Shown: positions 37,567 through 63,997 of the stretch, piece by piece
Position numbering within the stretch: position 1 is the stretch's first letter
Layout: each line of letters starts with the position of its first letter
Source: Strobilurus pachycystidiatus
Taxonomy: Eukaryota > Basidiomycota > Agaricomycetes > Agaricales > Physalacriaceae
Direction: 5' to 3'
Length of the DNA stretch: 64,000 bases
Assembly (NCBI GenBank): GCA_019915135.1
Contig: JAHLMK010000004.1
Span: 2,972,733-3,036,732, forward strand
The notes under the pieces: model-generated
What the model saw: the letters and a program-made list of their open reading frames with translations, nothing else
Told to the model about the DNA's origin: nothing
Databases searched by the model: none
Position numbers and translations under genes: made by a program

Positions 37567-37580
37567 TGAAGGGGGGATAC
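37567..37580 (+). promoter_or_regulatory. Polypurine tract of the chromovirus
   Basis: TGAAGGGGGGATAC immediately precedes the 3' LTR, as expected for the plus-strand primer. Confidence 0.7.
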
Positions 37581-38394
37581 TGTCATATCCATGCGTCATG
37601 ACACAGGATCGGACCGGATTTCCGACTTACTCAGCCAGTCACGCGTCTCCTCGTGACCCCATTAATCATCCATCCTCGCCAAGGCTTGCCAAGTCCAGCC
37701 GGGCCGCCCGGACCTCCGCACGTGATCCTTTACTCAGCATCTCTACCGCCAAACTTGCCATACCCTTGACCCAGACCATGCTGCCCTTTGCCCAATACAT
37801 GTGGACCTCCGCTTGTGATCTTACTTATCTCCTTATGCATCTACCTACTCAGTCCAGTATTTAAGCGCTTGTACTTTACCTATGTTTCCTCAGTTCGAAT
37901 ATCAACTTAGACGCTCCAGTCTAGTCTTCATCTCTTCTTCTTGTCTAAACTCAACTTGCGGAACTCCGCTCGTTGGCTAAGACTTACATTCTCCAACTCG
38001 CGTTGTCCTTACGGACCTCCGAGCTCATCTCTTGTCTCCTTCCTCCGGGTTTGCTCTTCCTTGGCGGACCCCCGGATTCAAGGCTCGACTCAAGGGACCA
38101 ACCTGCTGAACGCAGGCAGCCCTGGTTCCGGACCACCGACAATCCTCAAGACCGGGCCCCCTGCAACTCTCACCACAACCGAGGGATAGCCGGACTACCG
38201 CTTGACGGGGATCCATAGGGTTGCAGGTGTGGAAACACGTGCCAATACAGAATAGGTAAACCTTTTACCTTTTCTTTCTTTTAAACACTTCTACGCTTAT
38301 TCTTTCACAGGCTCGGAGCACCGCTTGTGCTGTGCTTACCGAGAAATCCGGTTTCGGACATCCGCTTGACTTGGTCTGGGGCACGGTCTTAACA
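37581..38394 (+). repeat. 3' LTR of the chromovirus
   Basis: 814 bp, same ends and no visible difference from the 5' LTR. Followed by the CAGAC target duplication. Confidence 0.95.
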
Positions 38395-45599: not shown

Positions 45600-47394
45600 C
45601 TAATTAAGAGGCTGTTGTGGTGTATAGTACTGGTAAGGCTGCATGTAAGGAGGGGGATAAGGGAAGTGTAACGGCTGGGGCTGTACATTTGGGGGAGGGT
45701 ATTGATATAGATATGGGTGAAGGTATGGGTTGAATGTGCTGGAGCTGCTGTTGAGGCGGGTGCCTCGAGACCCTCCAAAAGCCGTGCTATGAGAACATCC
45801 TTCACACCCGAGTAGGGCTTTCATTGCTTCTTGCAAAGGGCTGAGAGTTGTGCCACCTTGAGCCCGTAAAGAACGCGCGGATTTGATTGGTACTCAAATG
45901 TGTTGACGTTAAACTCTGCGTAGTCACATTCCCCGGGACGTGGAGGCGCAAAGGCAGTCGGCACTGAATCCGCTCCTTTTGAGGTTGCTTGCTGACAAGG
46001 CCTGAAAATAGGAAACATTGATTAGACAGTCACAAAGTAATAAAACTTTTAGCACGCACTTCAGCGCATCTGGTCTCGCTTTTTGACCGGATCTTTCACC
46101 ATCAGCGTATGGATCCTGATGTGTAGTCTTGCGCTTCTTGATCCTGGTAGCCGCCGCTCCCATGACAGCAGCGGTCTCCGTCCAAGAATGCTGATTTGGC
46201 GCAATCTTGCTTTTTGCTGGAAGAACAAAGTCGTCCGAGTACTTGAGCTCATTGTCAAGGGCAATGGTGTCCGTGTAGAAGGTGAGCAATCGGGGAGTTA
46301 CAGGTGTGGTTGGCGGGCACGCGTGTAAGGTGGTGGTAAGAGCAGAGAGCCTTCTGATGACATCGCTGAGTGATAGCATCTGTTTGTCATTTGTTGGCAG
46401 GTCATTCGAGTCCGAGTCTTTCTGCCGTATCTGAGACTTTGACACTGTTGTTGATGGACTCAGAACGGAATGAGGAACCTGAGGGCACGACTCTGGATAG
46501 ATCCGTTGCGCAAGGCACAGATGCTTGCAAAAGTTAATCGCTGGAAAGGATAGACACGTACATTCACCAGTGTCCAGATCCACGGTATACTCAACACTGC
46601 AATCAGACTGTGAGCAAACACGGCATGTACCAGACTCTGAATGAACGGGAGAAACCAAAGATACCGGAAGTGATGCAGCACGTTCTTCGATCTGACGCCA
46701 GCGTTTAGCCTCCAGATTCGGCCCCGCAAAGCCAATCCATTGCCGATGATGTCGTTCGATGAAGTATGGGATAGTTTTGTCAACCAGCACATGGAGAAGA
46801 TGATCCAGCCGACGATTACGCTTGCCCTCGAGGAACTTGCCCTTCAGAAGATGATGCCAAGCTTCGACAAGCATATTTGTGTTTGATAGATTATGAATGC
46901 TCCGATTCTGTCTGTAGACAGCGGACCAGAGCGTCTTCTCCGGCAGCCAATAGTCAGAAAGATAGATCCGAATGCTCTGTGGCGCAGTGGCCTGAATTTG
47001 GTCCCAGAGAGTATCAAACTCGGAAGACGTTATCGCGTGAAGCCATTTCTTCAGAAGCTCCCGGAGTTCTGGAAACTCGTTGATATTGAAGTGTTGCTGC
47101 CACGCGTGGAGAACATGCCACCAGCATAGAAGCAGAATGGATCGCGGGTAGCGTCGCTTGATTGAGTTCATTTGTGCGCAATCATGATCGGACATGAATA
47201 GAAAAGGAATGATGTTGGGAAATAGTGACACCATCGTCTGGAGGAAGAAGTCGACTAGGGTTTGAAAGTTCAGTTCAGTTGAGTTTTTTTCTAAGATTTT
47301 CAAAAAACCACAACTGAACTGTGATCTGACCTTACAGTTTTTCCTGCAACTCACAACTGAACTGCAGTTGCATAAGAGACCAGTTTTGAGACGG
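45600..47394 (-). pseudogene. Mutator-like (MULE) transposase with SWIM finger, 5'-truncated
   Basis: Minus-strand exon from about 47,250 shows the C-terminal half of a MULE transposase: FLFMSDHDCAQMNSIKRRYP, LLLCWWHVLHAW, then a SWIM zinc finger CTCLSFPAINFCKH (CxCx8CxH, about 46,530). An intron 46,059-46,002 joins it to a further exon (KPCQQATSKGADSV...). A Pro/Tyr/Gln-rich end follows in a different frame (to 45,600), so the last junction is uncertain. The catalytic N-terminal part is absent because the giant Gypsy begins at 47,395; the missing 5' part should lie beyond the right edge of the window. Confidence 0.75.
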
Positions 47395-49090
47395 TGATAT
47401 GCAAGTTTGAAATAGACCTCTAAAAAGGGACTTATGAAATCTATCCTATCTATCCTTATATCTCACTAATACTCCTTGTGGGAGCGAGGCTGGTGTAGTT
47501 GTTCAAAGGAACAAGTACTTTTGGTATTGGAACAATAGAGATGTATTCCGAACTTGCGTTCGAGTAGTTTTAGGGGGTGTAGGGAGATTGATTCACAAAG
47601 TCGAACAAGATAATCTGAAAGTCGTAGGCCAAAGTCACAACGTACGGAGACCTTAAACAGCGCGAGGCAATGTAGCTCCTTCTTATTGATCGTTCTTTTG
47701 TACAAGGTGATTGTCTTATGGCAGGCCGCTACCGTAGGTGTTTATGCTACTGGACTGCTACCAAGTAAGGCGATTTCCTCGTCCTTAAACCAAACTTCTA
47801 GTGTCTTGGACTGGGACCAAAGATTCCGTAAGGTGTTTCAGACGATAACAACACTCGTTCAAACTCAACTAAACTCCTCAAAGGCGAATACTTCACAACA
47901 GAGCGTGATTGCAAGGCAGAACTACTTGCAACCCGGCCTTCTAACGAACACAAGGGTCTAACGCCAAGTGGTGTCGTTTGGTATTGTCTTAGTGACTTGG
48001 AGGATAGGAACCTATGAGTTCTTCAAGGAGTTTGCTAACACCTGATATCGCCTAAATGGTTCTAAGGTCTTTTTGGGGCTTTCAAGGTCTTTTGGGTTCT
48101 CTCAAATTCAGAGTAAGTTGAGTCGAAACTCGAGTTAGATTCACTACAGCGACTGCGTATTACTAGCGGATACTGTGGGGGCACTAAGCTACCTATCTAC
48201 TGGCGCTTTCTGGCCTTTTATACTATTCCTACTATTCTGTACTGTAAGCGGGTTTACTACCTGTCGGGCCTCTCGGAGGTCGAGTCATTCTGTACTAGCG
48301 TCCTGATTGGCTATCCCTGTTCGAAACAGCCGACCCGGGAGAAGACTGAACACTTGGTCAGCGCCAAGTGCGCCACACCACCGATCTGGCTCTTCCTTAA
48401 GTCTATTTCTGTCTCCCGAGGTCCCGCTTGTCTTGGCAAAAACTCCTTAATGAGTTCTTTCGTGTCTTTAGGCGTTGGTTGGGTTTATCCTTAGCGCTTG
48501 GAAGGTGATTTGTTTTCGACAACTCAGTGACGCCACATCAATATGTGAGTTCCAGTGAGGTACAAGGTCCATGATCGGGCCTTTTAGCCAGGTCTATCTT
48601 TAGTGATCGGCGGCGGCGGATCGAAGTCCGTTTTCTTTGGTGCGGGGCGTCGGAGCGGAGATCACTATTCCGAAGGCGCCATGGCCCGGAAGAGAGATCT
48701 TCTCCTTGATCTATTCTTGGTCGCGCGAGTTCTGACTTAGCACGAGTAAACTCCTTGAGCCTTCTTGGTAGAGTATCTCCTGCCTGGTTACTTTCCGTAG
48801 TGCTATTTCTGGTAGGCACTTGTCGTTGCATGACCGACACGGTTGAATGAACTCCTGGTTTTAAGAGTACAACACTTGGATAATGATATTCGGAGTTAAG
48901 GAGTATGATCGGTCGATCATACCGCGTCCTAAAGGCGCGTATCCCTTAGTCCTGGAGACTTGCCTGCGTTAAGGTAGTTTCTCCGTGTGTCTCTCTGGTC
49001 GTTGTGCTGTGACTGGAAGTCCTGGCATAGACTCCTACAGGAATCGCAAAATTCCCTGGTTCTGGCACTAGGATTCTACAATGCGTATCA
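47395..49090 (-). repeat. 3' LTR of the giant Gypsy
   Basis: Direct repeat of 62,302-63,997 with no indels seen. ORFs inside it are not supported as genes. Confidence 0.95.
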
Positions 49091-49099
49091 TCTCCTCTT
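49091..49099 (-). promoter_or_regulatory. Polypurine tract of the giant Gypsy
   Basis: Minus-strand AAGAGGAGA directly precedes the 3' LTR. Confidence 0.55.
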
Positions 49100-49232
49100 G
49101 ACTTTTGAAATGTCGTCCCCAACATCCTAGTAGTATCGCGAAAACGCTTATTCCTTCTGCCTTGGTGCAAAGCCCCAGACCTTTTGCCGTTCTATCTTTA
49201 TCAAGGTCCTTGGCAATTTTCGCCTTGCTCGC

Positions 49233-49245
49233 CTATAAAAACGCC
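49233..49245 (+). promoter_or_regulatory. TATA box of antisense accessory gene 1 (CTATAAAAACGCC)
   Basis: Identical 13-mer to the one at 51,209-51,221 before accessory gene 2. It lies 43 bp before the ATG. Confidence 0.65.
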
Positions 49246-49287
49246 TGTTTTATCTCCTGGGCGTTTTCATCCTTACTTTCCTTCGAC

Positions 49288-50798
49288 ATGGCTCCCAAAT
49301 CCTGGACTTCCTGCGCTCGTCTTTTGCCTTCGGTCCCTTACCTTCCTTCCGCGAAGGAGATCGCCACTCACAAGGACGCTTCCGTCGCCGTCCTCGCCTA
49401 TTCCGTGGAATACGATCCTCCTGCGACCACCCCGGACACCTTTACGGTCCTTGGGCTTCGCATGTCGATGGCTCTCCCTCGCCTCAACCGTCTCGACATC
49501 AAAAAGGCCTGCCTCAACATGGAACTTTCCAAGCAGATCACCGAGCAGGTCGACAAAATCATGGAGGCGGTCTTGGTGTGTCCCTTTTATCCTTCGTTCA
49601 TGTCGTCGTTTCCTTAATTCCTCCTAGATGGCCAACACCGACATCAAGTCCGTTCCTTCCGACTCGAAGGTCCCATCCGACCTTGTCTTGTTCTTCCACA
49701 ACGTCAAGAACTACCTCGGATTGACGCTCCATCTCCTTGGCATTCATCCTCAAACGCCTTCGCACCACATCGCGCACATCTTCCAACCTTTGGTGAACAC
49801 CGCCAAGAAGATGTCGAACGCGCAGTTCCAGCCTTTGCCTACTGATCATCCCATGCATCCGACCAACGTCTTCGTTAAACCGGACCCCAAGGTCAAGGTT
49901 TGTCTTTCATACTTGTTCGTTAGGTCTTTCTTAACGCCTTACCTCTTCACAGGGAAAAAGCAAGAAATCTCCTGAAGTTATCACCGACGCTATGGAGAAA
50001 CAGGCGGAAGAAGACATCGACATGGATGCCGATGGCCGTGCGCGATTCTTCAAGCGCGAGTATTTTGATTGGGCTGACGATGTTGCAGAAGCCGACACCG
50101 ACGGTGAGGAGTCCGTGATTGTCGTTGGTGAGAACGTACGCTCAATTCCTTTATAGCCCTTCGCCTTCAGCTGGCTGATTTCTTCCAACAGATGTCCTTG
50201 TCCAACAACCTTTTCAAAAAGGCGGAAGCGGTGAGTCGTTTACTACTCTTGGTCTTTTTGCCTTTACTTGGTTCTGATTGGGATTCCCCTTTAGAGCACT
50301 TCTGTGCGTTATCTTCCTTTTGCTGCCCTACCCAAGATGGACGTTAACGCCCGTGTTTATCAGCGCGCCATGCAAACCTTGGGATCCCTCAACGGTCAGG
50401 AACTTCCTCCTAAGCGCAAGCTCCCCGACGACCTTTCTCGCCGCGCCGCTAAGGCTGCTCGTCCTTCGACCTTTATGATCGAGCCGGTCTTGCTCAAGCA
50501 ATTGGATGCGGGTACGTCCTGTTGCTTTGATCTGTCTTTCTCCTTTCTGACTTCTTGGATATTAGCACCCCAGTATATCAACGGTTTGCAGGCCGCCTTG
50601 ACGCAAGTTCACAAGCGCATGACCCGCTTGGCCGGTGTGGATGATCCCAATATTTCGCCGGGACTTCTCCAGTTGGAGCGTCAATACCGCCACGACATTA
50701 TCTCGTCTTACAATGAGATCCGGGGTCGTATTCAGTTCGTTTTGTCGACTCGGGATTTGTACATTTCCGCCTTAGACGGAGTGGACCAAGTCCAGTAG
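49288..50798 (+). CDS. Antisense accessory gene 1 of the giant Gypsy (409 aa, six exons)
   Basis: Exons 49288-49575, 49628-49897, 49953-50135, 50192-50230, 50295-50511, 50566-50798; every junction keeps phase and the total is 410 codons. Introns are 50-64 bp with good GT/AG sites. The predicted protein has an N-terminal region (MAPKSWTSCARLLPSVPYLP), a helical middle, an acidic patch (DAMEKQAEEDIDMDADG...), a basic KRKLPDDLSRRAAKAARP, and a helical C-terminus (INGLQAALTQVHKRMTRLAG). No signal peptide or known enzyme motif is visible. It is transcribed against gag-pol, so its introns survive retrotransposition. Function unknown; nuclear location is suggested by the basic patch. Confidence 0.75.
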
Positions 50799-51208
50799 TT
50801 TCCTAAAGGTGGTCTCAACCTCCTCCAAGTCTTAGCCAGTCGTCTAGCCCTTTCTCCTTTCATGTTTACACCGGCTTCGGATTTCGTTTTATCCCTTGTA
50901 GGTCCGGTAGCACTTTGTTTCCCGTAGCTACTTTAGTACACAGCCGTCTCAACACGACTACCCTTGTTTTTACCCTTTGGCGCGATCCGTTAGAACTCCG
51001 GCGATCCTTCTTAAGTCCAGTGATCGCCTTTAATCAAACTAAGTAAGTTTGATCGGGAATTCCCGATCACCTTCGTCGAATCGTTCATCCTAAATTTTTA
51101 CAGCGCCTAGGTCTTTTTAATGGTCTTTGGAGTAGCTTAAGCTTTATTCCTAGACTCGCTTAAGCTATTTCTTCCTTTGCCTTGGATCGTCACGGCGGTC
51201 CCGGCGCT
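50799..51208. other. Spacer between antisense accessory genes
   Basis: No ORF of note. It contains short inverted motifs (TAAGTTTGATCGGGAATTCCCGATCA near 51,043-51,068 has a GATCGGGAATTCCCGATC palindrome, 51,052-51,069) that could be a terminator or regulatory hairpin. Confidence 0.5.
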
Positions 51209-51221
51209 CTATAAAAACGCC
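51209..51221 (+). promoter_or_regulatory. TATA box of antisense accessory gene 2 (CTATAAAAACGCC)
   Basis: Same 13-mer as before accessory gene 1, here 30 bp before the ATG at 51,252. Confidence 0.65.
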
Positions 51222-51251
51222 AGAGTTGCTTCTGGTTTTGCCATAACCGCC

Positions 51252-52371
51252 ATGCCTATCCCGATTCTTCCTTCGTTCTCTGACACTCGCCTTCGCGGCA
51301 TCCCTTTGCACAACCAACCTGCTCCGGAGGAGCTCGAGGCCCTACTTGGCGAATTGGCCTTGACCAGCGCTTTAGAATTGTATACCTTCGCTCGGCGATT
51401 CAGCATCGTTATCCGCTATGACGACGGCACTCTCTCCACGGTTGACGATACCGCGGCGGTAGCTGCCTTAGAAGAGCCAGTACTTCATTTCGGTGAAGGG
51501 AAGCCTTTGGATGTCCCGTCCCTGCGGTATTTGTTGTATACCTTGGTGCGTACCAACGCCTTAGGCCCTTTATGCCTGCTTACTTCCACTCCAGTGTCGT
51601 CTGGCGTATATGTGGGATCCCGCCTTCTACGAAAACCCCGTCATTTACCTTGGCTTTCGCCGGTACTTCTTTCCTTTGTACTACGGAGCCGTGGAGCTCT
51701 GTAAGTCTTGGTTCCGAGCCGTCAATGGAAGGACCCTCGACGGTTTCGCCCTTGATAACTTCCTTGGGTTTGGTTTGCTGGACATCCCGGGCGTGCATCC
51801 CGACTTGATGCAGGACATTATTCCCCGGTTCATGGTGCGCAAACACCTTTTCCAGAACCGCCTTGTCTGATTATTTCTTCTAGGTGGAATCCACCTTTGG
51901 CGGCTACATGGGATTCGATTCCACTCTGCGCGAGTTGATTATCGACCCAAATGCCTTGCGAATCCTCCCTGTTCAATACGATCAAACGCCTCCGTCCATC
52001 GTAACCGTTATGAAGTGGTGGCCGGAGTTCCAGCGAGCGAATTCTGCCTTGTATGGTTTTCCTAAGTTGGGGGCCTTGATGCGACCTACTCGTCTTAGGC
52101 GTTTGGCTCCCCACGTTGAAGTTCCCTCGAACACCGTTCGTCAACTCCTTCCCGCGCTTCGCACACCTTGTAACTTCTGTGCTTGTAGCGAGCCGATGAG
52201 CATTTGTCTTTTGTCACTCCATCCTTCTGGGAAATAGACTGGTCAAACGCCTCCGCACTGGACTACGAACTCCTGGAGAACTATATCATGATTCTTGATG
52301 TTAGGTCTTCGGGTTTCTTCTACGAACGCTTAGCGCGTCTCCCAGTGGGTCCAGATTGGAATCGTTTTTAG
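51252..52371 (+). CDS. Antisense accessory gene 2 of the giant Gypsy (322 aa, four exons)
   Basis: Exons 51252-51545, 51595-51834, 51884-52135, 52189-52371; introns 49-53 bp; phases match and the total is 323 codons. The protein looks globular: N-terminus MPIPILPSFSDTRLRGIPL, a middle with MWDPAFYENPVIYLGFRRYF and DGFALDNFLGFGLLDIPG, and a C-terminus SFWEIDWSNASALDYELLEN...GPDWNRF. Aromatic-rich; no transmembrane run. I do not recognise a family. Shares its promoter box with accessory gene 1, suggesting coordinated expression. Confidence 0.72.
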
Positions 52372-52772
52372 TCTTCTTTCCTCATAGAAACTCCTTTACC
52401 TGTCTAAGATTGACCACCTTAGTCTATAAAAGACCTTAGTCGTTTAGTCTACTTAGCCAGGTCCTATAGAATTTCTCCTTAGTTCGCTTTTATACACGCT
52501 TGTATTTCCCCTTAGACCTTATTCGAAACTCCTCTTGACTTTTGAGAAGTTCGCCCTGCCTGGGCTTGGCCTTTAAGGCGTTTTTGCCTTAACACCTTAG
52601 GTCTCGAGGTCTTTTTCTTTCTTCTTAGAAAATCACACTTGTTTTTAATGAAAAGCGGATTTTTATTTTTGGCGGGCGGGTGCGTGCGGTAGAGGTACAT
52701 GTAAATATATTGTTCGTAAATTGTTCCAACAAAAACGGCGGCGGCGAAGGGGAAACTGTCCGCGACGAAGTC

Positions 52773-54845
52773 CTACTTCTTGCCAATGATCTCCCTGACT
52801 TTTTTCTGCGCGGTGGGCGGCAACGTGAAGTACCACGACAGGATCAGGTTGACCCGGTCGGTGACTTCTTGTTGATCCATCGAGGGGAGGAAGTCGCGCG
52901 CGGATGAGGTTGGCGCGACGGTGTGGCGCGAAGATCCTTCGCCTGCGTTGGCGGCCCTTTGCTTCTTGTCCTGCTCAGCCTTCTCTTTCTCCGTGACGAG
53001 GCGGAGGGGCGACATGAGAGAGACGCGACGCGTCGACTCTCGGCGTGCGCGCGGGGCTTCGATCTCCTCGAGTTCACCGTCGTCGTCGTCCTCCGGTACC
53101 GGGGTCGGGGCTCGTTTCGCCTTGGCCTTCCCCTTCTCCTTCTTCTTCGGGGGTTCGACCACCTCGACCTCGCTATCTTCCTCGACATCTCTCCGACGCT
53201 TCTTTGACTGCGCCGTTGCCTCTTTCTTCTCCTGCACTTCCGACTTGACGGCCGTTCCTCGACGCGCAGGGTAGACATAACGCGCGCTCGAGATCTTCTT
53301 GTCGCTGACCAGCGGCTGCGCCAGTTTCTGCAACTTGGCCCGAAGACGCCCATCGAGACTCATCCAAGTTGGTGCCTTTGGCTCCCGGTCCCAGACAAGA
53401 AGACAGGGACCGTAGATCCCGCGACTCAGGGAGCACTGGTCGCAACTGGTCTTGTTGCCGCGGTCACTCGAACGCATCCGGTTGAACGTGCAGACGACGC
53501 TACACTGCTCACAGGCGAGACAGTGCGCGTCGTCATCGTACAGGGGAACGCGCCTTGTCATTTTGCTGGAGGCTTCCGTCGTTCCTTCTTCGGCCTCGGT
53601 TTCTCCTTCGGCGTCCTCCTCGACCTCCGACGGTTCCTTGTCTCTCGGATCGACTTTGGCGATGGTCTTAGGTCTGGGGCGTCGTTTAGCTGGAAGCAAG
53701 GGAGCTATAAATTGCCGGACAACGTACTGGTTCGCTGTCTTGGGGCCGATTCCCTTCCCTTTTACCATGTGTCGCCTTGCCGGAACTTCCACCGCCTTCA
53801 TGGACTTGGCTGGCGAGTGGGGTTTCGGTTGTGGTCGGGGTCGCGGGGCCACCGGCGTGGGGGACTTGTCCGTCGCGAGCTCATCTTCCTCCGGCTCGCT
53901 GCCCGCCTCCTCTTCCACATCCTGCATTCTTCGCCGCGGCGTCTCTTCTCTATCGCCTGCCTCGTCCTGGTCGTCGTCCTTCTCGTCGCGTTCGGAGGTC
54001 TTGGGGGCAGGTTCCTCTGGCACAAAGAGCTGGAGTTGGCACTGCGACGCTGCTTCTTCGATCAGGAGGTCCAATACGTGGCTGAAGGAAAAGTATATGG
54101 GCTGGGAGGTGCGTGCTTTCTGGAGAACCGGGATCAGGCGGCCCCAGAACTCTTCAGCAACTTCCGTCTGCGGCACAAAGGTCCAGAGCTGCTCTGGCGC
54201 GAGGAAAGCGACTTGGGCATCGTCTTCCTCGAGCTGTAGGGCGATGTCTGGGCGAGCGAGGGGGTTGCCTAGAAAACACGGCACTGGCGGGTCGTTTTTC
54301 TTTGGGTCTAGTTCGACTTGTTCGAGGGCCCTAGTGAGGGCGGTCTCGACGCGTTCCAAGGGGGTGTTGTCGGCTGCGTCGAGCGCCTCGAGTACGTCCT
54401 GGAATTCTGTCCAGAAGACAGCGTCCGCGCGATACGTTTTGTATCTGTGCTCTTCCAGGAGCTTCCTGGTGCGTTCGGGTGCCGACGCCAACTTGTGCGC
54501 TAAGGACACGTCTAGTCCTGCGGCTCGTAGGCCCATCGGTACGCGGTTGTTCAAGAGGAATCCGCTATAGTCAAATGGCGGTCGTGCTTCTGGGAGTTCT
54601 TCGGGACGCGCGTCTCCAGCTGGTTCCTTCTTTTTGACGCGTTAGTCGTTTTTTCCGTTTTTCATTACTGCTCCTGGCTTACCTTGACAGGATTTTCAAC
54701 GCGTTCTGCCTCTGGCGAGGTCTCCTTTTCGTTTGCAGGGGCGGGCGACTTCTCCTTTAGGTAAGTTAGTTTGCTTCCCTGATGTTCGTTTTTGGTGGAG
54801 CCGTACTTTGTTTTCCGGGGCGACCTCTGGTGTTGGCGACGACAT
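52773..54845 (-). CDS. Sense-strand accessory gene of the giant Gypsy, Cys-motif protein (655 aa, three exons)
   Basis: Exons 54845-54807, 54754-54683, 54629-52773, with introns carrying CTAAC branch points; 656 codons in phase from an ATG at 54,845 (MSSPTPEVAPENK). It has a helical N-terminal third, two acidic/basic low-complexity tracts, a central Cys cluster CLACEQC..C then SCDQC......C (about residues 410-455), many Lys/Arg runs (KKKEKGKAKAK), and a short helical C-terminus (RVNLILSWYFTLPPTAQKKV). It sits where env would be in a retrovirus, but there is no signal peptide or membrane segment, so an envelope role is unlikely. The Cys layout recalls the antisense ORF of the chromovirus at 36,263. 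Confidence 0.72.
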
Positions 54846-55336
54846 GGTGGGTGCGGTTGAAGGTGCGTGGACTTGCCCAGGCTTCTTTTCTTCGCTTAGT
54901 GCATCACCTTCGTTGCTCATCACCTTTAAGCTTTCTCGTTCGTAGCCGGGCACAGCCCTGCCCGAGTCGTGCGTCATCTTCTCAAGGGGCTACGACCCTC
55001 TTTCTTTCCATTCCCATGTTACGAGACTCCCATGTACCGTATTTAGAGCTCCAAATTTAATTTTTATTGCAAAATTATAGCCTTTAGAATAAATGGGACC
55101 GTTGTCCCTCTATTCCCTTTTTACTTTTTCTGATGACGTCCCCGTCATCCTGCCAGAGCACTTGGATTATTTCGGACACTACTGGCTCAACGGTTGAGCG
55201 TCTCGTCTTGGACTTGGTTTCAATACCGAGCGCCGGTTCGAGTCCCTCTGCTGCCAGTCTTGCATCCTTAACTGTCAATTGCATCCAAATCTTTTTCGCA
55301 CAACTACTTTTCCATTGTTATCGTTTTTGATCCTTT
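54846..55336. other. Spacer between pol and sense accessory gene
   Basis: Short ORFs only; includes what should be the pol 3' untranslated region and the promoter of the accessory gene. Confidence 0.5.
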
Positions 55337-58300
55337 TTAAGTAGTTTTTGCAATTCTATCCAGTGCTTTTCCGACTCCGCGACTGATACGCCTAAGCCTA
55401 GAGAAGAATGTCTCTCCTAAAGCAATAGGATCCCTTCTGGCCACGAAGGGTATTACTCGAAATTGAGCAATCTTATCCCTCCAGATGGTGCCATCCAGCT
55501 CACATACCACATAATTCCCTGCGGATGTCCTGGAAACCACCGCAAAAGGTCCCATAAAGCGTTCTTTAAACTTGGCATTCATTTCGGCTTCAATCCGGGT
55601 GTTTCGTACTAACACTAATTCACCTGTTTTGAATACATAACGCGGAATGCTGTTGTTGAATTCCTCCATGAACTTCTCCGCTGCCTTCTGCTTGTTCAGA
55701 AGGACTTTAGACTTTAACCTTGCCGTATCACCTTTGTGTTTTATTAACTGCCTTGCTCGGAGTGCAACCAAATCCGAGTGCGATACAAGGTGATCTGGCA
55801 TGTCCACCAGCCAAGTAATCTCCACCAGGTCCATAGGCATTATAGGTTCACAGCCCGTTACGGCATGGAAGGGAGAAGTTCCTATACTCCTTTTGATAGT
55901 GATTCGTTCTGCCCATAGGACTTTGTGTAGATACTCCGGCCAATGTTCCGGATTTCCTTTACACACCTTAAAGAGTGACTGGCGAATATCCCAATGTCCT
56001 CTTTCGACTTTACCATTTGCCTGTTTGTTATAGGCGGTAATCAGGATACCCGTGATGCCATATTTCTCCTCTATGTGTCTAAGGGCTTTCTTGATAGCTG
56101 GACCATTGTCCGTTACAATCTCCTTGATGCAGCCCCAACGGCAGAGAATGTCCTCAAAGATCCATTCTCCTAGTGTTTCCGCTGTTTCATCTCGCAGAGC
56201 TTTGGCCTCTGGCCAACCTGTCAGACCACACCTTGCCACGGTAACAGCGTTGAATCCAGCCCACTTGGATGGTTGCTTCTTTTTGGCTGAATGTTCTCCG
56301 GCCTTGGGCATTCGGAAGGTGTCTATGTAGGCCCTCTCGAATATCCCAGGTGTAGAGGTGATGGTTGGCGCTATCTTTATGTTTCGTTTCTGTCTCTTTT
56401 GGCATATAAGGCAAGATCGCACATACCACCGTATGTCTACCTCCATCCCTGGCCACCAGAACCGTTTGGCAAGTAGCTGAAGCACCGAGTACTGACCTTT
56501 ATGACCAGCTCTGTCATGCATAGCTTTGCAAATCGGAATCCGTTCCTTCGGTAGGAGTACACGGCGGAGATTTCCATCTAAGTGAGACCTATATAGTTTC
56601 TCGTGTCTGATTGAAAAGTCCTGACTCCATTTTTCGAAGTCCTCATCCTCCTGGACTTTACTCCCGACCAAGTGTGGCTGGAGATCCGGCAACCTATTTT
56701 CCCAAAGGCGTTCTCGCTTGCTCTTTACTAAGCTAGGGAACTCCTCGATCTCCATCCACTCCTCAATGTCCTTGATACCAGTTAGCGCGGAGGTCCTGAT
56801 CGCCTTAGATACTTTCATATGCTTTGGCAAGGGACTTCTAGCTATTTCCTGACTGTAGCCTCCCCTAGTATCGATATCATATCTGAATGTCTCAAACTCC
56901 AGAGGTTTGTCTTCGGTCGGAAGGTCCTCAGGTTCTTGATATTCAAAGCTATTGATTCGATCGTCCTCATCCCCTTGAGTGGGTCTGGGTATTACTTCGT
57001 CGTTCTCCGAAGCAGGACGGCGGCTAAGACCGTCTGGACCATGGACTTTTCCTGGTACGTGTATAAGCTTGAAATGGTACATCAAAATCTCCTCTGCCCA
57101 TCTTTGTAGGTTGGCATTGGCTAGGGAGTCAATATTCGACAGCATCCCTTTGATGTACTTAGCATCTGTTTCAATCTCTAGTTTTCTACAACCTAGGAGA
57201 TAGTACTTACACGCGGACAATGCCCGGAACAGACCAAACAATTCCCTCTTCGCTTGGGAGTACCTGGCTTCTCGGTCGTTGAGCGTTAAGGACATGAACT
57301 TGGCATAGTATCTTTTCTTTGGGTCATCCGGATCTACTTGGGATAGGTAATATCCTACCGCTTGGTAAGAAGTATCTACCGACAAGGTGATCGGAGTTGA
57401 CCATTCGTAATTCAAGGGTTTTAGCATCGGACAAGTCCTAACTGCTTCCTTGAGGAGGTCCATACTAGCTTGTTCAATATCCGTCCATTGAAACTTCGTT
57501 ATGTCCTTAGTCAACCGGGTAAGAGGTAAGGCTTTCTTCGAGTAGTCTTTCACGAAGGCCCTGAAGATCCCCGCGGTCCCTAGGAAAGCTCTAACTTCGG
57601 TCAGTGCCTTACAAGGTGGCCAATCAGAAATCACCTTAACTCTTTCTTCTGCCGGTTTCCTTCCTTCATAAGTGCAGACATGTCCTACGACTACTATTTC
57701 TTCCGCACATATGATGGCTTTATGTCCAGAAAAGGTACCTCCGGCATATTTCATTCGTTGTATAATACGATTCATATTTAGAAGGTGTTCCCAGACAAAG
57801 CGCCTAACTTCTGGATGCCCCGGAAGCGTTTCATAACTTCCATCCGGCTGTACATATCTAGTGGCTGGACCACGGATAGGTACATCATCGATGTAAGGTC
57901 TTGTGAACGCCGGTATTTCATCCATTAGAATGGTTGTAACGTCGTCGTGAAATATCGGAACCAAATTGGTCCATCCCATAGGTAAAGTCTTTAATTGTAA
58001 AGCACCGTAAGGTGTTGAGAAGGTAGTCATATCGCGAGAGGCAGTGGCCAGTAGCCGTTCATCATACCCGACATACAAGTCCAGTGTACCTCCACAGGCT
58101 CTTCCTGCGAACGCTTCAGCTAACTCTTCTGTAGCAGGAGGCAACCCCGAATGTGCGATGGTTACCGCGTTAAGAGGTTCCAAGCTATGTACCAAACGGA
58201 GTTTCTTTCCATCCTTTTTCACTACACAGAACCACCTTGAGCGATATGAAGAGTTCGAAGGTTCATATACGCCTGAGTCTAGTTTGTGCTTGATTATCTT

Positions 58301-59248
58301 ACAGACTTCATTGTAGATTCCTGGGGGTATAGGTATGTTTCTTAACACCCACGGAGTATGTGGAATAACGGGTATATCGACAGGTGGAAAGTACTCTGGG
58401 TCAAAATGTCCTTTTTCCATTTCCTCCCAGGCGAATCCCGCATTCTGTCCACACATAAGTTGGTCTACAATTCGTCTTTCCACCGAAGTCAGAAAATCTC
58501 CAGGGTGGTCCGCTTGTAGTTGTTCACGTCTTTCCGCAGTATACCTTCCAGTTGGTACGAAGGGCGGGGGATCTGGACTGAGTTCAGGCATTCCTGCTAG
58601 AGGATCGCCTTTGATATGTCGTTTGATCCTGAATTCTTTGGGTAGAGTCCCCAGATGGGCTTTGGTTTTCAGCGCCATCGGTTTATACTTTTTCCCGGCG
58701 AACACGCCTCGTACTGGACGTTGACTTTCCAGCTCCAGGAACTTGTCCTGTGCTTCCGTCACATAATCTTTAGGTAGCGTCACTGAAAGTCCTGAGAATG
58801 ATTTGTGCAACTCTTGTGGTACCCCATAGAAGAGATTCATGGTCACTGTGGCGTGTGACTTAGTTCGTTCTTGGTCTTCGGCAATTCCCTTTATGTTAAA
58901 CACCTTTCGAAATCCTTGTACCTTGGTTGCGTTGATTTCTTTCAATAAACCCCGAGGCGTTACCAGGCTAGCTGGGACAGTTCCTGGCACCGTAGAGGCT
59001 TTCATAAAGGCATGTTGTTTCCTAAGGCTTTTTGCCGCCTTGTCTATGTACGCAGGAGATTTCTTCAGGTAGAGGGAGGTTAAGGCCCCTTCTCGGAAGT
59101 GTGCTTCATTTTCTCCTGGTACCCAGGTTTGCTTGACTTCTACATTACCATTAGGTGATCTTTCCAGGATCAACACCGCCTCTCCGTAGGCGTTTCCTAC
59201 TTCCTTGAGTCCAGGTGAAAACCCTGTTGCCCCGGTGGTAACATATGC
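55337..59248 (-). CDS. pol: Giant Gypsy Pol: RT, RNase H, integrase (1,279 aa from 59,176)
   Basis: Open from about 59,248 on the minus strand to the stop at 55,337; no ATG near its start, so expression probably needs a -1 shift from pro. Numbering from 59,176: RT with WFCVVKKDGKKLRLVHSLEP (about 315-334), YIDD (428-431), RNase H-like SVDTSYQAVGYYLSQ (about 585) and YSQAKRELFGLF, integrase zinc finger H...H...C..C (about 890-925), DDE core with AYIDTF, TDNGPAIKKAL and NGKVERGHWD, and a C-terminal GPF..VSRTSAG segment. No chromodomain. Catalytic residues are intact, so it appears capable of activity. Confidence 0.93.
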   Translation of the reverse strand, partial: AYVTTGATGFSPGLKEVGNAYGEAVLILERSPNGNVEVKQTWVPGENEAHFREGALTSLYLKKSPAYIDKAAKSLRKQHAFMKASTVPGTVPASLVTPRGLLKEINATKVQGFRKVFNIKGIAEDQERTKSHATVTMNLFYGVPQELHKSFSGLSVTLPKDYVTEAQDKFLELESQRPVRGVFAGKKYKPMALKTKAHLGTLPKEFRIKRHIKGDPLAGMPELSPDPPPFVPTGRYTAERREQLQADHPGDFLTSVERRIVDQLMCGQNAGFAWEEMEKGHFDPEYFPPVDIPVIPHTPWVLRNIPIPPGIYNEVCKIIKHKLDSGVYEPSNSSYRSRWFCVVKKDGKKLRLVHSLEPLNAVTIAHSGLPPATEELAEAFAGRACGGTLDLYVGYDERLLATASRDMTTFSTPYGALQLKTLPMGWTNLVPIFHDDVTTILMDEIPAFTRPYIDDVPIRGPATRYVQPDGSYETLPGHPEVRRFVWEHLLNMNRIIQRMKYAGGTFSGHKAIICAEEIVVVGHVCTYEGRKPAEERVKVISDWPPCKALTEVRAFLGTAGIFRAFVKDYSKKALPLTRLTKDITKFQWTDIEQASMDLLKEAVRTCPMLKPLNYEWSTPITLSVDTSYQAVGYYLSQVDPDDPKKRYYAKFMSLTLNDREARYSQAKRELFGLFRALSACKYYLLGCRKLEIETDAKYIKGMLSNIDSLANANLQRWAEEILMYHFKLIHVPGKVHGPDGLSRRPASENDEVIPRPTQGDEDDRINSFEYQEPEDLPTEDKPLEFETFRYDIDTRGGYSQEIARSPLPKHMKVSKAIRTSALTGIKDIEEWMEIEEFPSLVKSKRERLWENRLPDLQPHLVGSKVQEDEDFEKWSQDFSIRHEKLYRSHLDGNLRRVLLPKERIPICKAMHDRAGHKGQYSVLQLLAKRFWWPGMEVDIRWYVRSCLICQKRQKRNIKIAPTITSTPGIFERAYIDTFRMPKAGEHSAKKKQPSKWAGFNAVTVARCGLTGWPEAKALRDETAETLGEWIFEDILCRWGCIKEIVTDNGPAIKKALRHIEEKYGITGILITAYNKQANGKVERGHWDIRQSLFKVCKGNPEHWPEYLHKVLWAERITIKRSIGTSPFHAVTGCEPIMPMDLVEITWLVDMPDHLVSHSDLVALRARQLIKHKGDTARLKSKVLLNKQKAAEKFMEEFNNSIPRYVFKTGELVLVRNTRIEAEMNAKFKERFMGPFAVVSRTSAGNYVVCELDGTIWRDKIAQFRVIPFVARRDPIALGETFFSRLRRISRGVGKALDRIAKTT

Positions 59249-60372
59249 CTAGGTATTTGTCCTCGTCGGTACGACGGTATGGTCAACTTCTTGCCATTGG
59301 TATTATCTGTCAGAGTCCCCACGGCGTTTCCATTGGACAAGTTCGTAATTACCAGATTGGATACAATCTCGAATGGTCTACCTAATAGGACTTCATAGGC
59401 GGGGTCCTCCAGAACATGCAACTGGAGGTAGTACACAATCCCTTCGAAGTCGAAGGGTACATTGCGGGCTAACCCAAGTGTACTAGTCCGTCCTTTATCC
59501 GCGCTTTCCATGGTTATTTTGAAGTTGGGATCATAAGAAACCCCTAGTTCTAACGCAGCTTTCAGCGAGATTGAGGCGATTTGAGAACCCCCGTCAATGA
59601 GACTTTCCTTCTTTCCGTTGCGGTTTATCATAGGCCAGAAAGTCCTTAGATCAGCGTTCTCTGGTGCAATGTTTCCCGTAGTCATGTGGAATGGTCCAGT
59701 ATATTGCCCTCCAGTGAGGTTTATGAACTGTTCCACCGCATCGTGAACTACAATTCCTCCAATCGGCAAGTTGTCTCGTGCTTGTAAGTTAACTGAGTAT
59801 AACTTCGGTTGGTAGTCGTCTTGTACCGTTTCGGTCAATTCCTCCTGTTGGAGTACCGAAACCGGCGCATTTCGTTTTCTAATGAAGTCCGATATGCTTT
59901 GCTGCCACGGAGGATTCGTTGCTAAAAGAGCTTCCGGAAGTAAGAACTTCCATGCTTCTCTCCAGCTCGGGTTCTTGTGTAGCAATTCTTCCGCTAAGCT
60001 GCGGCGTTGGAAACTTTTGACCTTCTGCTGAGGGTGTAAGGTCTTCTGGTTCGTTGGTGTACTCGAAGGTAGAGTTGAATCTACCTTAGGCTGCACTGCA
60101 GGCGCAGGTTCTTCCATAGCCAGAATCTCCTCAAGAATTTCCTGATCCACAGGAGATATTTCTTGGGTGACTTCGGGTTTAGTGAAGGTTACCTTTGGCG
60201 ATACCGGGGCTTTAGGAGGTATTACCACGGAGACCCGGTCCCGAGGCCAAGGTATTTTTGTCTTTTCCGGTGTTGAAACCGGTTTGGAATGATTATCTTT
60301 ATTACTTTGTCGAGTTTGAACAGTCAACTGGCTCTCCGGAGGAGTCTGTGCACTAGGCACTCCTTCCTTCAT
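59197..60372 (-). CDS. Giant Gypsy protease ORF
   Basis: ATG at 60,372-60,370 overlaps the gag stop by one base (TGATG). The first about 200 residues are Pro/Glu/Thr-rich. A retropepsin-like SLIDGGSQIASISLKAALEL lies near residue 270, with a later LLGRPFEI. The ORF ends at TAG 59,199-59,197, and the pol frame overlaps its last about 50 bases. Confidence 0.85.
   Translation of the reverse strand: MKEGVPSAQTPPESQLTVQTRQSNKDNHSKPVSTPEKTKIPWPRDRVSVVIPPKAPVSPKVTFTKPEVTQEISPVDQEILEEILAMEEPAPAVQPKVDSTLPSSTPTNQKTLHPQQKVKSFQRRSLAEELLHKNPSWREAWKFLLPEALLATNPPWQQSISDFIRKRNAPVSVLQQEELTETVQDDYQPKLYSVNLQARDNLPIGGIVVHDAVEQFINLTGGQYTGPFHMTTGNIAPENADLRTFWPMINRNGKKESLIDGGSQIASISLKAALELGVSYDPNFKITMESADKGRTSTLGLARNVPFDFEGIVYYLQLHVLEDPAYEVLLGRPFEIVSNLVITNLSNGNAVGTLTDNTNGKKLTIPSYRRGQIPRHMLPPGQQGFHLDSRK
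59218..59224 (-). promoter_or_regulatory. Candidate -1 ribosomal slip site GGGTTTT (pro/pol)
   Basis: In the pro frame the codons are CA-G GGT TTT, an X XXY YYZ heptamer. Slipping back one base gives GGG TTT TCA, which is the pol frame, six codons before the pro stop. A small CGCCT/AGGCG hairpin follows at 59,192-59,177. Confidence 0.65.
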
Positions 60373-61733
60373 CAAGCCTTGCCGAAACCCGAAAATGGTT
60401 CACTACTGAACTCGCTTTCCTGGGGAGTCATTTGCATATATATCGAAGGATCCGGCGCGAATTCATCTTCTTGGGATTGGAACGCGGAGACCTTGGTTGC
60501 ATTTTCTTGCTGGTATTTCTGTACCTGTTCCCAAGGACTTAGCGGTTGCTTCGCATTGGTCCTTTGAATGGGCTGTCCATTTTGTAAGTGGTAGATGTTT
60601 GTCCCCCCTGGTTTGAATATATGACCTTGGGTTTCACACATTTCTTTCACCGGACAATTGGTGATTATATGCCCCACATCCCGGCAGAAATAACATCTTC
60701 CATCGTTTACTACAAACTTGTTGCCTGGAGGAATCGCACCTTGCGGAGTCTTATAGATCCCGTTAGGCAGATTGGTCGGAAGCGAGACGCCATTCATTGG
60801 AGTTTGTAAATACACACTAGGTGTTTCTTGTACATAGCCTTGTGAACGCAGACCTTGAATGTTGGTCCTCTGCAGACTCTCCAGGACTGCCGTCAAGAGT
60901 TTCTGATCATTCTTTCTAGATTCCTCTCGATCTTTCTCTCCTTTCTGGATAACGTCCTGGAGCGAGGCTATACGGTTCAGGTATTCGTCCAGTTCCTCGG
61001 TCTTGACCCGCGACGTTGGCATAGGGACTAAGTCCCTGGAAAACGCATTCGTGGTCGGGGGACCAGATACCCATTTGTCCGTGAGGAAGTAATTGGAGAC
61101 TGCCTTGGCTACTTGATCCAAGGTAAAATCATACGTTGGAGTAGTTCCAGCGACTGCTGTCTTCAACACTTCCTGCCTCAGATCTCCTAGGACATTGTGC
61201 CAGATTCCTTCCGTAAGGGAGGACTTTATATACTCAATAGCACCTTTGTTGGTTACCTCTCCACTCTGAATCAAAGCTTCCAGGATATGGAGAACTTCGC
61301 GCGAGAACGCTTCCCAATACTGTTTGTTATTAACAGGCCGGGCGATGTAAGGTTCCAAAGCGTCCTTGAGGTCACTGGGGACATACTCCGGATCGTTCTT
61401 ACCCTTCGAGTAGGAGGCTAAGATTGACTCCTTGAAGTCTGCCCAAACACCTTTTGCATAGTCTGCATGTCGGTGCCAGCGTTTCCTCTGTTCATGGCCT
61501 GCGTAGAAGGCAGCCATCTCCATTTTGGTTCCTTGTTCCTTGACGTTTGAGACATCGAAGATCCAGTCACAGGTCGCGAAGAATTCCCTAATATCTTCTC
61601 CAGTCTTGCCTTTACATTTGGGGGCGTTGTTGGAGAAAGGTATGGGAACCTTTTTGTCCTTGATTTCTGCTTTTGCCTCATCGCTGAGTTCGTCAGAAGG
61701 GATTAACTTTCTAACGGCAGCCATTGCGGGCAT
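60372..61733 (-). CDS. gag: Giant Gypsy Gag (453 aa or longer)
   Basis: ATG at 61,733; the same frame is open upstream to about 62,223 without an ATG and reads Ser/Pro-rich, so a longer or spliced form is possible. A capsid-like helical region (about residues 30-230, KGKTGEDIREFFATCDWIFD) is followed by a linker and a CCHC knuckle CYFCRDVGHIITNC (about 350). Stop TGA at 60,374-60,372. Confidence 0.88.
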   Translation of the reverse strand: MPAMAAVRKLIPSDELSDEAKAEIKDKKVPIPFSNNAPKCKGKTGEDIREFFATCDWIFDVSNVKEQGTKMEMAAFYAGHEQRKRWHRHADYAKGVWADFKESILASYSKGKNDPEYVPSDLKDALEPYIARPVNNKQYWEAFSREVLHILEALIQSGEVTNKGAIEYIKSSLTEGIWHNVLGDLRQEVLKTAVAGTTPTYDFTLDQVAKAVSNYFLTDKWVSGPPTTNAFSRDLVPMPTSRVKTEELDEYLNRIASLQDVIQKGEKDREESRKNDQKLLTAVLESLQRTNIQGLRSQGYVQETPSVYLQTPMNGVSLPTNLPNGIYKTPQGAIPPGNKFVVNDGRCYFCRDVGHIITNCPVKEMCETQGHIFKPGGTNIYHLQNGQPIQRTNAKQPLSPWEQVQKYQQENATKVSAFQSQEDEFAPDPSIYMQMTPQESEFSSEPFSGFGKA

Positions 61734-62279
61734 AGTGTTGGTTCGTGGGTTGGAGTTTCCGAAGTTAATAAACGTAGGAATTGGTGGTAAACTGTCGTCG
61801 TCTTCTAAACTAGTTAGAGGACTTCCAAAAGGTGTGGAGCTCGTAGAACTAGGCGAGATTTCGGAGGCTGAAGATCGCCTTTGGCTGGTAGTAGCTCGCG
61901 AAGGTGTTTCAGGATCCGAGGTGGCTCTTCTCCTAGTGGATGCTTGGGGCGTCGGTGGTACTTTCGTTCCACGTTTCGACTTTTTGGACTTTGGTGTTGA
62001 CGGGTTCGCTAAACGCCTTTGAGCTGCAGCAACTTCTTGGGGAGTTCCGTTGAAGAGAGATCCGGCTGTAGGTCGTTTTGTTCGAAGCCGACTTGCTATC
62101 CCAGAGTTTGTAGGACTTGATGATCCTGCAATGACTGGTTTTGCTTTTGGTGGTGGCGGGTTTGCTTGGTTCTGACTGTTGGTATAACGTTCAGAGTTCC
62201 TAGCGGCCAGGTCGTTGTTTGGAATTTAAGACTTCGCAGATGCCTTGGTAGGTTTCGTTGAAATCAAAATATATCACCC

Positions 62280-62296
62280 CCTCGCGGTGGGCTCCA
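62280..62296 (-). promoter_or_regulatory. Primer binding site of the giant Gypsy
   Basis: Minus-strand TGGAGCCCACCGCGAGG begins five bases after the 5' LTR and starts with TGG as a complement to a tRNA CCA end. The tRNA species is not identified. Confidence 0.65.
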
Positions 62297-62301
62297 AAAT
62301 A

Positions 62302-63997
62302 TGATATGCACGTTCGAAATAGACCTCTAAAAAGGGACTTATGAAATCTATCCTATCTATCCTTATATCTCACTAATACTCCTTGTGGGAGCGAGGCTGG
62401 TGTAGTTGTTCAAAGGAACAAGTACTTTTGGTATTGGAACAATAGAGATGTATTCCGAACTTGCGTTCGAGTAGTTTTAGGGGGTGTAGGGAGATTGATT
62501 CACAAAGTCGAACAAGATAATCTGAAAGTCGTAGGCCGAAGTCACAACGTACGGAGACCTTAAACAGCGCGAGGCAATGTAGCTCCTTCTTATTGATCGT
62601 TCTTTTGTACAAGGTGATTGTCTTATGGCAGGCCGCTACCGTAGGTGTTTATGCTACTGGACTGCTACCAAGTAAGGCGATTTCCTCGTCCTTAAACCAA
62701 ACTTCTAGTGTCTTGGACTGGGACCAAAGATTCCGTAAGGTGTTTCAGACGATAACAACACTCGTTCAAACTCAACTAAACTCCTCAAAGGCGAATACTT
62801 CACAACAGAGCGTGATTGCAAGGCAGAACTACTTGCAACCCGGCCTTCTAACGAACACAAGGGTCTAACGCCAAGTGGTGTCGTTTGGTATTGTCTTAGT
62901 GACTTGGAGGATAGGAACCTATGAGTTCTTCAAGGAATTTGCTAACACCTGATATCGCCTAAATGGTTCTAAGGTCTTTTTGGGGCTTTCAAGGTCTTTT
63001 GGGTTCTCTCAAATTCAGAGTAAGTTGAGTCGAAACTCGAGTTAGATTCACTACAGCGACTGCGTATTACTAGCGGATACTGTGGGGGCACTAAGCTACC
63101 TATCTACTGGCGCTTTCTGGCCTTTTATACTATTCCTACTATTCTGTACTGTAAGCGGGTTTACTACCTGTCGGGCCTCTCGGAGGTCGAGTCATTCTGT
63201 ACTAGCGTCCTGATTGGCTATCCCTGTTCGAAACAGCCGACCCGGGAGAAGACTGAACACTTGGTCAGCGCCAAGTGCGCCACACCACCGATCTGGCTCT
63301 TCCTTAAGTCTATTTCTGTCTCCCGAGGTCCCGCTTGTCTTGGCAAAAACTCCTTAATGAGTTCTTTCGTGTCTTTAGGCGTTGGTTGGGTTTATCCTTA
63401 GCGCTTGGAAGGTGATTTGTTTTCGACAACTCAGTGACGCCACATCAATATGTGAGTTCCAGTGAGGTACAAGGTCCATGATCGGGCCTTTTAGCCAGGT
63501 CTATCTTTAGTGATCGGCGGCGGCGGATCGAAGTCCGTTTTCTTTGGTGCGGGGCGTCGGAGCGGAGATCACTATTCCGAAGGCGCCATGGCCCGGAAGA
63601 GAGATCTTCTCCTTGATCTATTCTTGGTCGCGCGAGTTCTGACTTAGCACGAGTAAACTCCTTGAGCCTTCTTGGTAGAGTATCTCCTGCCTGGTTACTT
63701 TCCGTAGTGCTATTTCTGGTAGGCACTTGTCGTTGCATGACCGACACGGTTGAATGAACTCCTGGTTTTAAGAGTACAACGCTTGGATAATGATATTCGG
63801 AGTTAAGGAGTATGATCGGTCAATCATACCGCGTCCTAAAGGCGCGTATCCCTTAGTCCTGGAGACTTGCCTGCGTTAAGGTAGTTTCTCCGTGTGTCTC
63901 TCTGGTCGTTGTGCTGTGACTGGAAGTCCTGGCATAGACTCCTACAGGAATCGCAAAATTCCCTGGTTCTGGCACTAGGATTCTACAATGCGTATCA
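62302..63997 (-). repeat. 5' LTR of the giant Gypsy
   Basis: 1,696 bp, TGATACG...GCATATCA on the minus strand. Ends three bases before the window edge. Confidence 0.95.

Follow-up and report, generated by a model that had tools for sequence, protein, structure and literature searches.

Long terminal repeat (LTR) retrotransposons are usually regarded as gag-pol machines. Here, we analysed a 64,000-nt stretch of the Strobilurus pachycystidiatus genome (assembly GCA_019915135.1, contig JAHLMK010000004.1, positions 2,972,733 to 3,036,732 of the forward strand; henceforth the window), in which positions 47395-63997 constitute a complete Ty3/Gypsy element of 16.6 kb with three extra genes. These genes form a module that is part of an element family in this genome, i.e., their order and orientation are fixed, and the copies compared have kept the introns and show selection at the protein level. 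We regard it as rather likely that the family is a Ty3/Gypsy lineage in which three accessory genes form a stable module and encode nuclear proteins that regulate, in trans, the expression of the element itself. Given such a family, the role of antisense extra genes in retrotransposons becomes testable, and so does the question of how an element keeps sense-strand introns through reverse transcription.

The features of the window copy are collected in Table 1. Since gag, protease (PR) and pol are coded on the minus strand, the LTR on the right takes the 5' position, gene 3 has the sense orientation and the other two extra genes, 1 and 2, run antisense. That is, the element reads gag - PR - pol - gene 3 - gene 2 - gene 1 - 3' LTR, and the 6.2 kb from the end of pol (55337) to the LTR (49090) hold the three extra genes. 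The initial annotation of this stretch had described a Gypsy element with near-identical LTRs and spliced genes on both strands, which is confirmed by the two LTRs (6 mismatches over 1,696 bp) as well as by the gene models that we rebuilt. Its location of the three genes between pol and the 3' LTR also stands, while the strand layout had to be corrected to the one given above. With regard to pol, three domains exceed the Pfam cut-off (PF17917, PF17919, PF17921) and follow the order reverse transcriptase (RT) - ribonuclease H (RNase H) - integrase, as in Ty3/Gypsy elements, with YIDD at residue 428, RNase H at 564-700, H2C2 at 877-931 and the integrase D..D..E beyond H2C2. The gag and PR frames overlap by 4 nt, and gag, PR and pol occupy three frames. 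A TGG 5 nt inside the LTR edge is a candidate for a tRNA primer-binding site next to the 5' LTR. Overall, the lineage is an autonomous-looking one.

Table 1. Features of the window copy in the order of the element (window coordinates; A and B are the two subfamilies introduced in the text).
Feature	Position	Strand	Details
5' LTR	62302..63997	-	1,696 bp, TG...CA ends; 99.65% identity to partner LTR
gag	60372..61733	-	453 aa; CCHC knuckle, zf-CCHC E 0.0065, sub-threshold
PR-like frame	59197..60375	-	392 aa; DGGS at residue 261; gag-asp_proteas E 0.014, sub-threshold
pol	55337..59176	-	RT (YIDD) - RNase H - integrase (H2C2, D..D..E)
tRNA-like stretch	55185..55270	+, antisense	alignment by eye; in aligned A copies, absent from B copies
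two-hairpin box	55075..55149	-	between pol and gene 3; 75 bp, fold z -4.83
gene 3	52773..54845	-, sense	exons 54845-54807, 54754-54683, 54629-52773
internal second polypurine-tract copy	52529..52545	-	between genes 2 and 3; exact 17-nt copy of 49092-49108
gene 2	51252..52371	+, antisense	322 aa; 3 introns of 49-53 nt
gene 2 exons	51252-51545, 51595-51834, 51884-52135, 52189-52371	+	
putative TATA box, gene 2	51210..51221	+	TATAAAAACGCC, 42 nt ahead of ATG
gene 1	49288..50798	+, antisense	409 aa; 5 introns of 52-64 nt
gene 1 exons	49288-49575, 49628-49897, 49953-50135, 50192-50230, 50295-50511, 50566-50798	+	
putative TATA box, gene 1	49234..49245	+	TATAAAAACGCC, 54 nt ahead of ATG
polypurine tract	49091..49108	-	adjoins 3' LTR; AAGTCAAGAGGAGA directly before LTR
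3' LTR	47395..49090	-	1,696 bp, TG...CA ends

We surveyed the family within this one genome. The 36 pol matches listed split into 12 with 98-100% identity (subfamily A) and 24 with 83-84% identity (subfamily B), i.e., the pol proteins of the subfamilies differ by 17%. For gene 3, there are 112 match rows. They include 12 copies of full length with identities of 82-100%, 9 of which are without a stop, and a large distant set with 36-41% identity for the long N-terminal matches. Clusters were derived from the places of the listed rows, where genes 1 and 2 mostly show one row per copy; given 210 and 202 matches in total, respectively, the cluster counts of these two genes are lower bounds. Among the matches listed, we find 66 clusters for gene 3 (some of them pieces of one copy), at least 58 for gene 2 and at least 51 for gene 1. 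For 56 of the 58 listed gene-2 clusters, gene 3 is located within 6 kb on the opposite strand, each time (56/56) on the expected side, and a gene-1 match among those listed accompanies 48 of the 58. When starting from pol, gene 3 follows downstream within 8 kb for 26 of the 36 listed matches. That is, the module shows a fixed order in dozens of copies and in two subfamilies. Two copies on different contigs (L046 and L048, 98.1% identical) lack both gene 3 and gene 2 along with two-thirds of gene 1 on its 3' side, which means that a module-less derivative has multiplied. Seven further pol matches have neither gene 3 nor gene 2 nearby among the matches listed, and one more is accompanied by genes 1 and 2 with no gene 3 among them.

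Gene models were obtained by a splice search between the starts and stops of the initial annotation, for which we required stop-free and in-phase results. The in-phase, stop-free splicing claimed for all three genes is borne out by this search, and the models of genes 1 and 2 in Table 1 are the top-ranked ones. To compare both genes between the subfamilies, we used one A copy (the window) and one B copy (L051); the intron boundaries of the latter were chosen by hand from the B sequence, which left both frames stop-free. All eight introns are found at the same places in the A and the B copy with GT...AG ends, at an intron identity of 0.38-0.64 and an exon identity of 0.49-0.72. Such a recurrence in a second subfamily argues that the gene models are not a product of chance. 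On the protein level, A-B identity amounts to 63% for gene 1, 50% for gene 2 and 83% for pol. The Nei-Gojobori (NG86) estimates, for which synonymous sites are saturated or nearly so, give for gene 1 a non-synonymous rate dN of 0.289 vs. a synonymous rate dS of 1.51 (dN/dS 0.19; respective uncorrected proportions pN 0.24 and pS 0.65), while we observe pN 0.35 vs. pS 0.79 for gene 2 and pN 0.11 vs. pS 0.83 for pol. Genes 1 and 2 are thus under protein-level purifying selection between the two copies compared. Both the recurrence of the trio with the element and the gene-1 rates support the earlier suggestion that selection acting on the element preserves the cargo. Stand-alone homologues or decayed frames in sister copies, which had been named as the outcome to contradict it, are not what we see in this genome, given the 56/58 linked clusters and the 9/12 open gene-3 frames. 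Both antisense genes are preceded by the TATA-like 12-mer of Table 1, which occurs nowhere else on the plus strand of the window; in a subfamily-B copy, TATAAAAGG is found about 50 nt ahead of the gene-1 ATG.

The model of gene 3 comprises two introns of 52-53 nt followed by a main frame of 593 aa. Here, the top-ranked splice model adds a third intron that falls within the main frame and scores 2.01, vs. 1.75 for the two-intron model; we prefer two introns because the main frame is open without the third. When reading from the aligned ATG, the two-intron model is stop-free in 19 of the 21 distinct copies (20 of the 22 loci given), while the unspliced frame from the same ATG runs into a stop after 27-101 codons. 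The exceptions are a copy with a stop in the main frame (L021) and one in which the start pattern has no match (L030). In 13 aligned copies, the 3' end of intron 1 appears by eye to be better conserved than the surrounding coding sequence. Since these introns have the same orientation as the genomic RNA and the model fits 19/21 copies, packaging and copying probably involve an RNA that is unspliced across gene 3.

The gene-3 protein carries six cysteines with the pattern C-x2-C-x6-C-x15/17-C-x2-C-x9-C, which is present in 14/14 aligned proteins and in one B protein. Fungal Zn2Cys6 clusters are spaced C-x2-C-x6-C-x5-12-C-x2-C-x6-9-C, i.e., compared to this consensus the gene-3 spacing of 2-6-15/17-2-9 is longer in the middle. 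For the zinc region of a divergent gene-3 allele, Zn_clus is the best Pfam match (E 0.0032, 18.0 bits vs. a cut-off of 21), followed by DUF3716 (E 0.0043). Gene 3 therefore lacks the combination of Zn2Cys6 spacing and a Zn_clus match above cut-off by which we would name a Zn2Cys6 regulator. None of the three proteins contains a strongly hydrophobic span, with the highest 19-residue mean being 1.00-1.10 (main frame alone for gene 3); by this hydropathy measure, all three are without a signal or transmembrane segment of the retroviral env kind.

The initial annotation saw no resemblance that it could name in these proteins. This holds in so far as no convincing relatives were found, and is to be amended for the Zn2Cys6-like, sub-cut-off motif of gene 3. 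None of the three accessory proteins matches a Pfam family above cut-off: gene 1 of the A copy shows just two chance-level matches (E 0.14 and 0.23), while gene 2 of the A copy and both genes of the B copy show none, and the antisense proteins of one A and one B copy have no Pfam match to TRP28 (PF04195). A search of the PDB by sequence gave three chance-level matches for gene 3 and none for gene 1, for gene 2 or for the zinc region taken from the divergent gene-3 allele. Within a collection of 5.8 billion protein sequences, in which basidiomycete proteins are present and pol has relatives at 64-84% identity, we found no relative of gene 2, nor one of gene 3 among the 7,995 scored candidates sharing most words. 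As these were probably crowded by low-complexity words, the gene-3 result is a weak negative. In IMG/VR, no relative was confirmed for pol, gene 2 and gene 1 using 6, 2 and 2 peptide patterns, respectively.

We also compared 13 other copies with A backbone to the window copy in steps of 150 bp. In the pol step 55754-55605, all 13 show 99% identity. For the gene-3 step 54704-54555, the identity is 99% in two copies, 67% in four, 55% in six and 45% in one, and it is back to 88-100% for the last two-fifths of the gene. The latter does not hold for L029, which carries a different version of the entire gene 3, with 33% identity to that of the window, between flanks of type A. In the RT-RNase H part, 11 A copies share 97.8-99.4% identity with the window copy. 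Between the window and L014, gene-3 residues 1-90 differ with pN 0.20 and pS 0.65, while residues 391-480 show a pS of 0.05; with respect to L029, both classes are high within residues 1-90 (pN 0.49, pS 0.69). The differences are mainly synonymous, which indicates alleles that are old rather than fast, and we reject accelerated evolution as the source of the variation for most alleles. The copy L022 resembles L014 at residues 1-180 and L016 at 261-300. Old gene-3 alleles thus appear to have been recombined into a uniform backbone. The stretch separating pol from gene 3 is variable too, without strictly tracking the allele, as L022 and L020 show by their deviation. Such allele swapping may point to selection that favours diversity in a protein carried by the element. 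One may extend this to a doubtful but more specific reading in which gene 3 would be a specificity gene with genes 1 and 2 as constant partners. Its ancient, functional N-terminal alleles would be swapped between near-identical elements and kept diverse by selection, and would mark element lineages, be it for self-directed anti-silencing, for genomic-RNA recognition via the two-hairpin box or for the exclusion of competitors. If true, this would be a retrotransposon with a polymorphic regulatory system resembling that of complex retroviruses.

Between pol and gene 3, the two-hairpin box is a possible cis site. It is nearly invariant across the A-B alignment, including L029 and L037, the same two hairpins are obtained for 3/3 subfamily-B copies folded, and both module-less copies have retained it. 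An Rfam search matched no family, and due to the near-invariance, covariation cannot prove an RNA role. With regard to the internal copy of the polypurine tract, a search for the 17-nt sequence with up to 3 mismatches gives on average 0.12 matches in shuffled sequence and only 1/100 shuffles reaches two, while both real sites are exact. In the B copy that we read, the counterparts of both sites are altered identically at two bases (CTCCCCTTGACTTA), as though some process held them alike. Our guess is that the internal copy could serve as a second plus-strand primer. The tRNA-like stretch shows a B-box-like GGTTCGAGTCC and an A-box-like TGGCTCAACGG, which resemble the consensus of RNA polymerase III promoters. 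A tRNA gene at 55185-55270 is confirmed by neither ARAGORN nor Rfam, both of which gave no match.

Antisense extra genes of LTR elements are already known from plant elements of the Retand type and from Boty/brtn of Botrytis. For Retand, Grande and RIRE2, antisense open reading frames (ORFs) between pol and the 3' LTR are suspected regulators (PMC11963269, PMC7264820). The pol-to-3'-LTR distance reported there (2,933-6,566 bp) includes our 6.2 kb, and both regions contain antisense coding regions, which in our family are present between pol and 3' LTR in most copies. In contrast, TRP28 is found in 97% of Retand clusters and has no such match here, the word 'intron' was not found in the main text of either paper, and the hosts are plants instead of fungi. 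Closer with regard to the host are the Boty-like Gypsy retrotransposons of Botrytis cinerea, which also carry an additional antisense gene, brtn (PMC8365987). One antisense gene is named there, whereas we find two antisense genes and a sense gene, all with predicted introns; this distinction is drawn by description. The CERV protein of Cer1 from C. elegans is made from a spliced mRNA and needed for the export of unspliced Cer1 RNA (PMC10309623). Cer1 and our element thus share an extra protein from a spliced mRNA and an intron-containing genomic RNA (both predicted from sequence in our case), while the portion of PMC10309623 considered mentions no antisense genes for Cer1; again, we liken the two by description. 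Finally, the VANC proteins of Arabidopsis VANDAL elements are anti-silencing proteins with conserved and variable parts whose targets differ among related elements (PMC5735166). The element-borne protein with conserved and variable parts is the shared trait, but VANDAL is another kind of transposon, and VANC recognises short motifs that are densely clustered in tandem repeats; we see no clear excess of such motifs (see below). Within the open-licence PMC papers searched, we found no report of a spliced three-gene module that combines two antisense genes (5 and 3 introns) and an intron-retaining sense gene with an exchanged part and a module-less derivative.

Based on these observations, we propose that genes 1 and 2 would be transcribed antisense to gag-pol from TATA promoters of their own. 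As their introns are antisense to the genomic RNA, reverse transcription would be unable to strip them. The genomic RNA would be copied unspliced across gene 3, with a spliced or separately initiated RNA yielding the gene-3 protein. We are less sure about the subsequent step, in which the products may regulate the element's transcription, its relief from silencing or the export of intron-containing genomic RNA. The two-hairpin box would be a possible cis site for such regulators, and gene 3 might supply specificity by its Zn2Cys6-like motif and its exchangeable N-terminal part. Concerning export of genomic RNA by an accessory protein of the Rev/CERV type, it is the premise alone, i.e., the sense-intron model of 19/21 copies, that our data support, and the rest is an analogy.

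A number of observations weigh against this proposal. Splicing and promoters are read from the sequence, and the regulatory function of the products is assigned by analogy. The gene-3 introns are the best of many candidate site pairs, and two B copies (L045, L050) were given another 3' site for intron 1. The Zn2Cys6 match stays under the Pfam cut-off, the common A allele reaches an E of just 0.16 for Zn_clus with its zinc region, and AlphaFold without alignment produced no usable model (mean pLDDT, i.e., predicted local distance difference test, of 38 and 41). When we looked in a simple way for repeated target motifs of the VANC kind, no clear excess emerged in subfamily A: in the A LTR, the most frequent 6- and 7-mers just reach the shuffle maximum, and other non-coding parts of A are below. 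A piece of the B LTR does show an excess (AAGGAC, 20 vs. 14 in the shuffle), but so does the pol coding sequence (AGGACAT, 16 vs. 14). Furthermore, L046 and L048 share a common deletion junction and have an open pol, so an element can do without the module in cis, and the products may act in trans.

The same derivative would suit gene capture, i.e., host genes were transduced or a second mobile element inserted and the cargo rides along. So would proteins with no Pfam relatives above cut-off and no PDB relatives beyond chance, as expected for obscure host genes. However, the trio is found in the same order in dozens of copies and two subfamilies, and the copies compared show the same introns and purifying selection over a near-saturated synonymous divergence. 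Furthermore, the genes are rarely apart: among the matches listed, 2/58 gene-2 clusters are without gene 3 and 3/51 gene-1 clusters without gene 2, and of the latter three, one adjoins pol and two (C5, C15) are 5-9 kb from other module pieces. We thus consider capture, and in particular a recent one, unlikely.

The protein-level constraint and the in-phase intron conservation of genes 1 and 2 also render it quite unlikely that the antisense units act at the RNA level, as double-stranded RNA or small RNAs, with the proteins being incidental, although the TATA-like sequences of the antisense genes would fit and a comparable role has been considered for elements of plants (PMC7264820). Selection on proteins is silent on its beneficiary, and the cargo might serve the host as a domesticated trait instead of the element. 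That there are dozens of copies, that the LTRs of the window copy are nearly identical and that some copies contain stops is more in line with a function for the element, and we hold a benefit for the host to be very improbable. That gene 3 is envelope-like can be argued from its sense orientation, its spliced model and its location downstream of pol, the usual env position. The main frame is without a strongly hydrophobic span, though, and shows charged stretches and the zinc-cluster-like motif; we reject the envelope role on hydropathy and grant it hardly any credibility. We thus retain the stable module of trans-acting regulators as the preferred explanation.

With regard to insertion, the contig ends 3 bp past the right LTR (the window end), such that the target-site duplication of the window copy is readable just as ACGG / ACG-end. 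We also considered the LTR edges of four sister copies, three of which are readable at both ends and show the 4-bp target-site duplications ACGC, CCGT and GCGG, as genuine insertions do; for the fourth, the 3' flank alone is readable (GCGT). All insertion sites seen (5/5, including the one-flank GCGT and ACGG at 47391-47394 of the window) are NCGN, and a preference of the element for CG at the target is possible.

The window contains further repeats. Two direct repeats of 816 bp (29711-30526 and 37579-38394) are 100% identical and flank an integrase match at about 35013, i.e., the pair probably marks another recent LTR element. Adjoining our element, a minus-strand ORF at 45924-47354 matches the transposase of Mutator-like elements (MULE) with an E of 0.0006, which is below cut-off. 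Finally, 20512-21743 and 43833-45064 show self-matches offset by multiples of 126 bp within two related 4-kb stretches, i.e., a tandem array.

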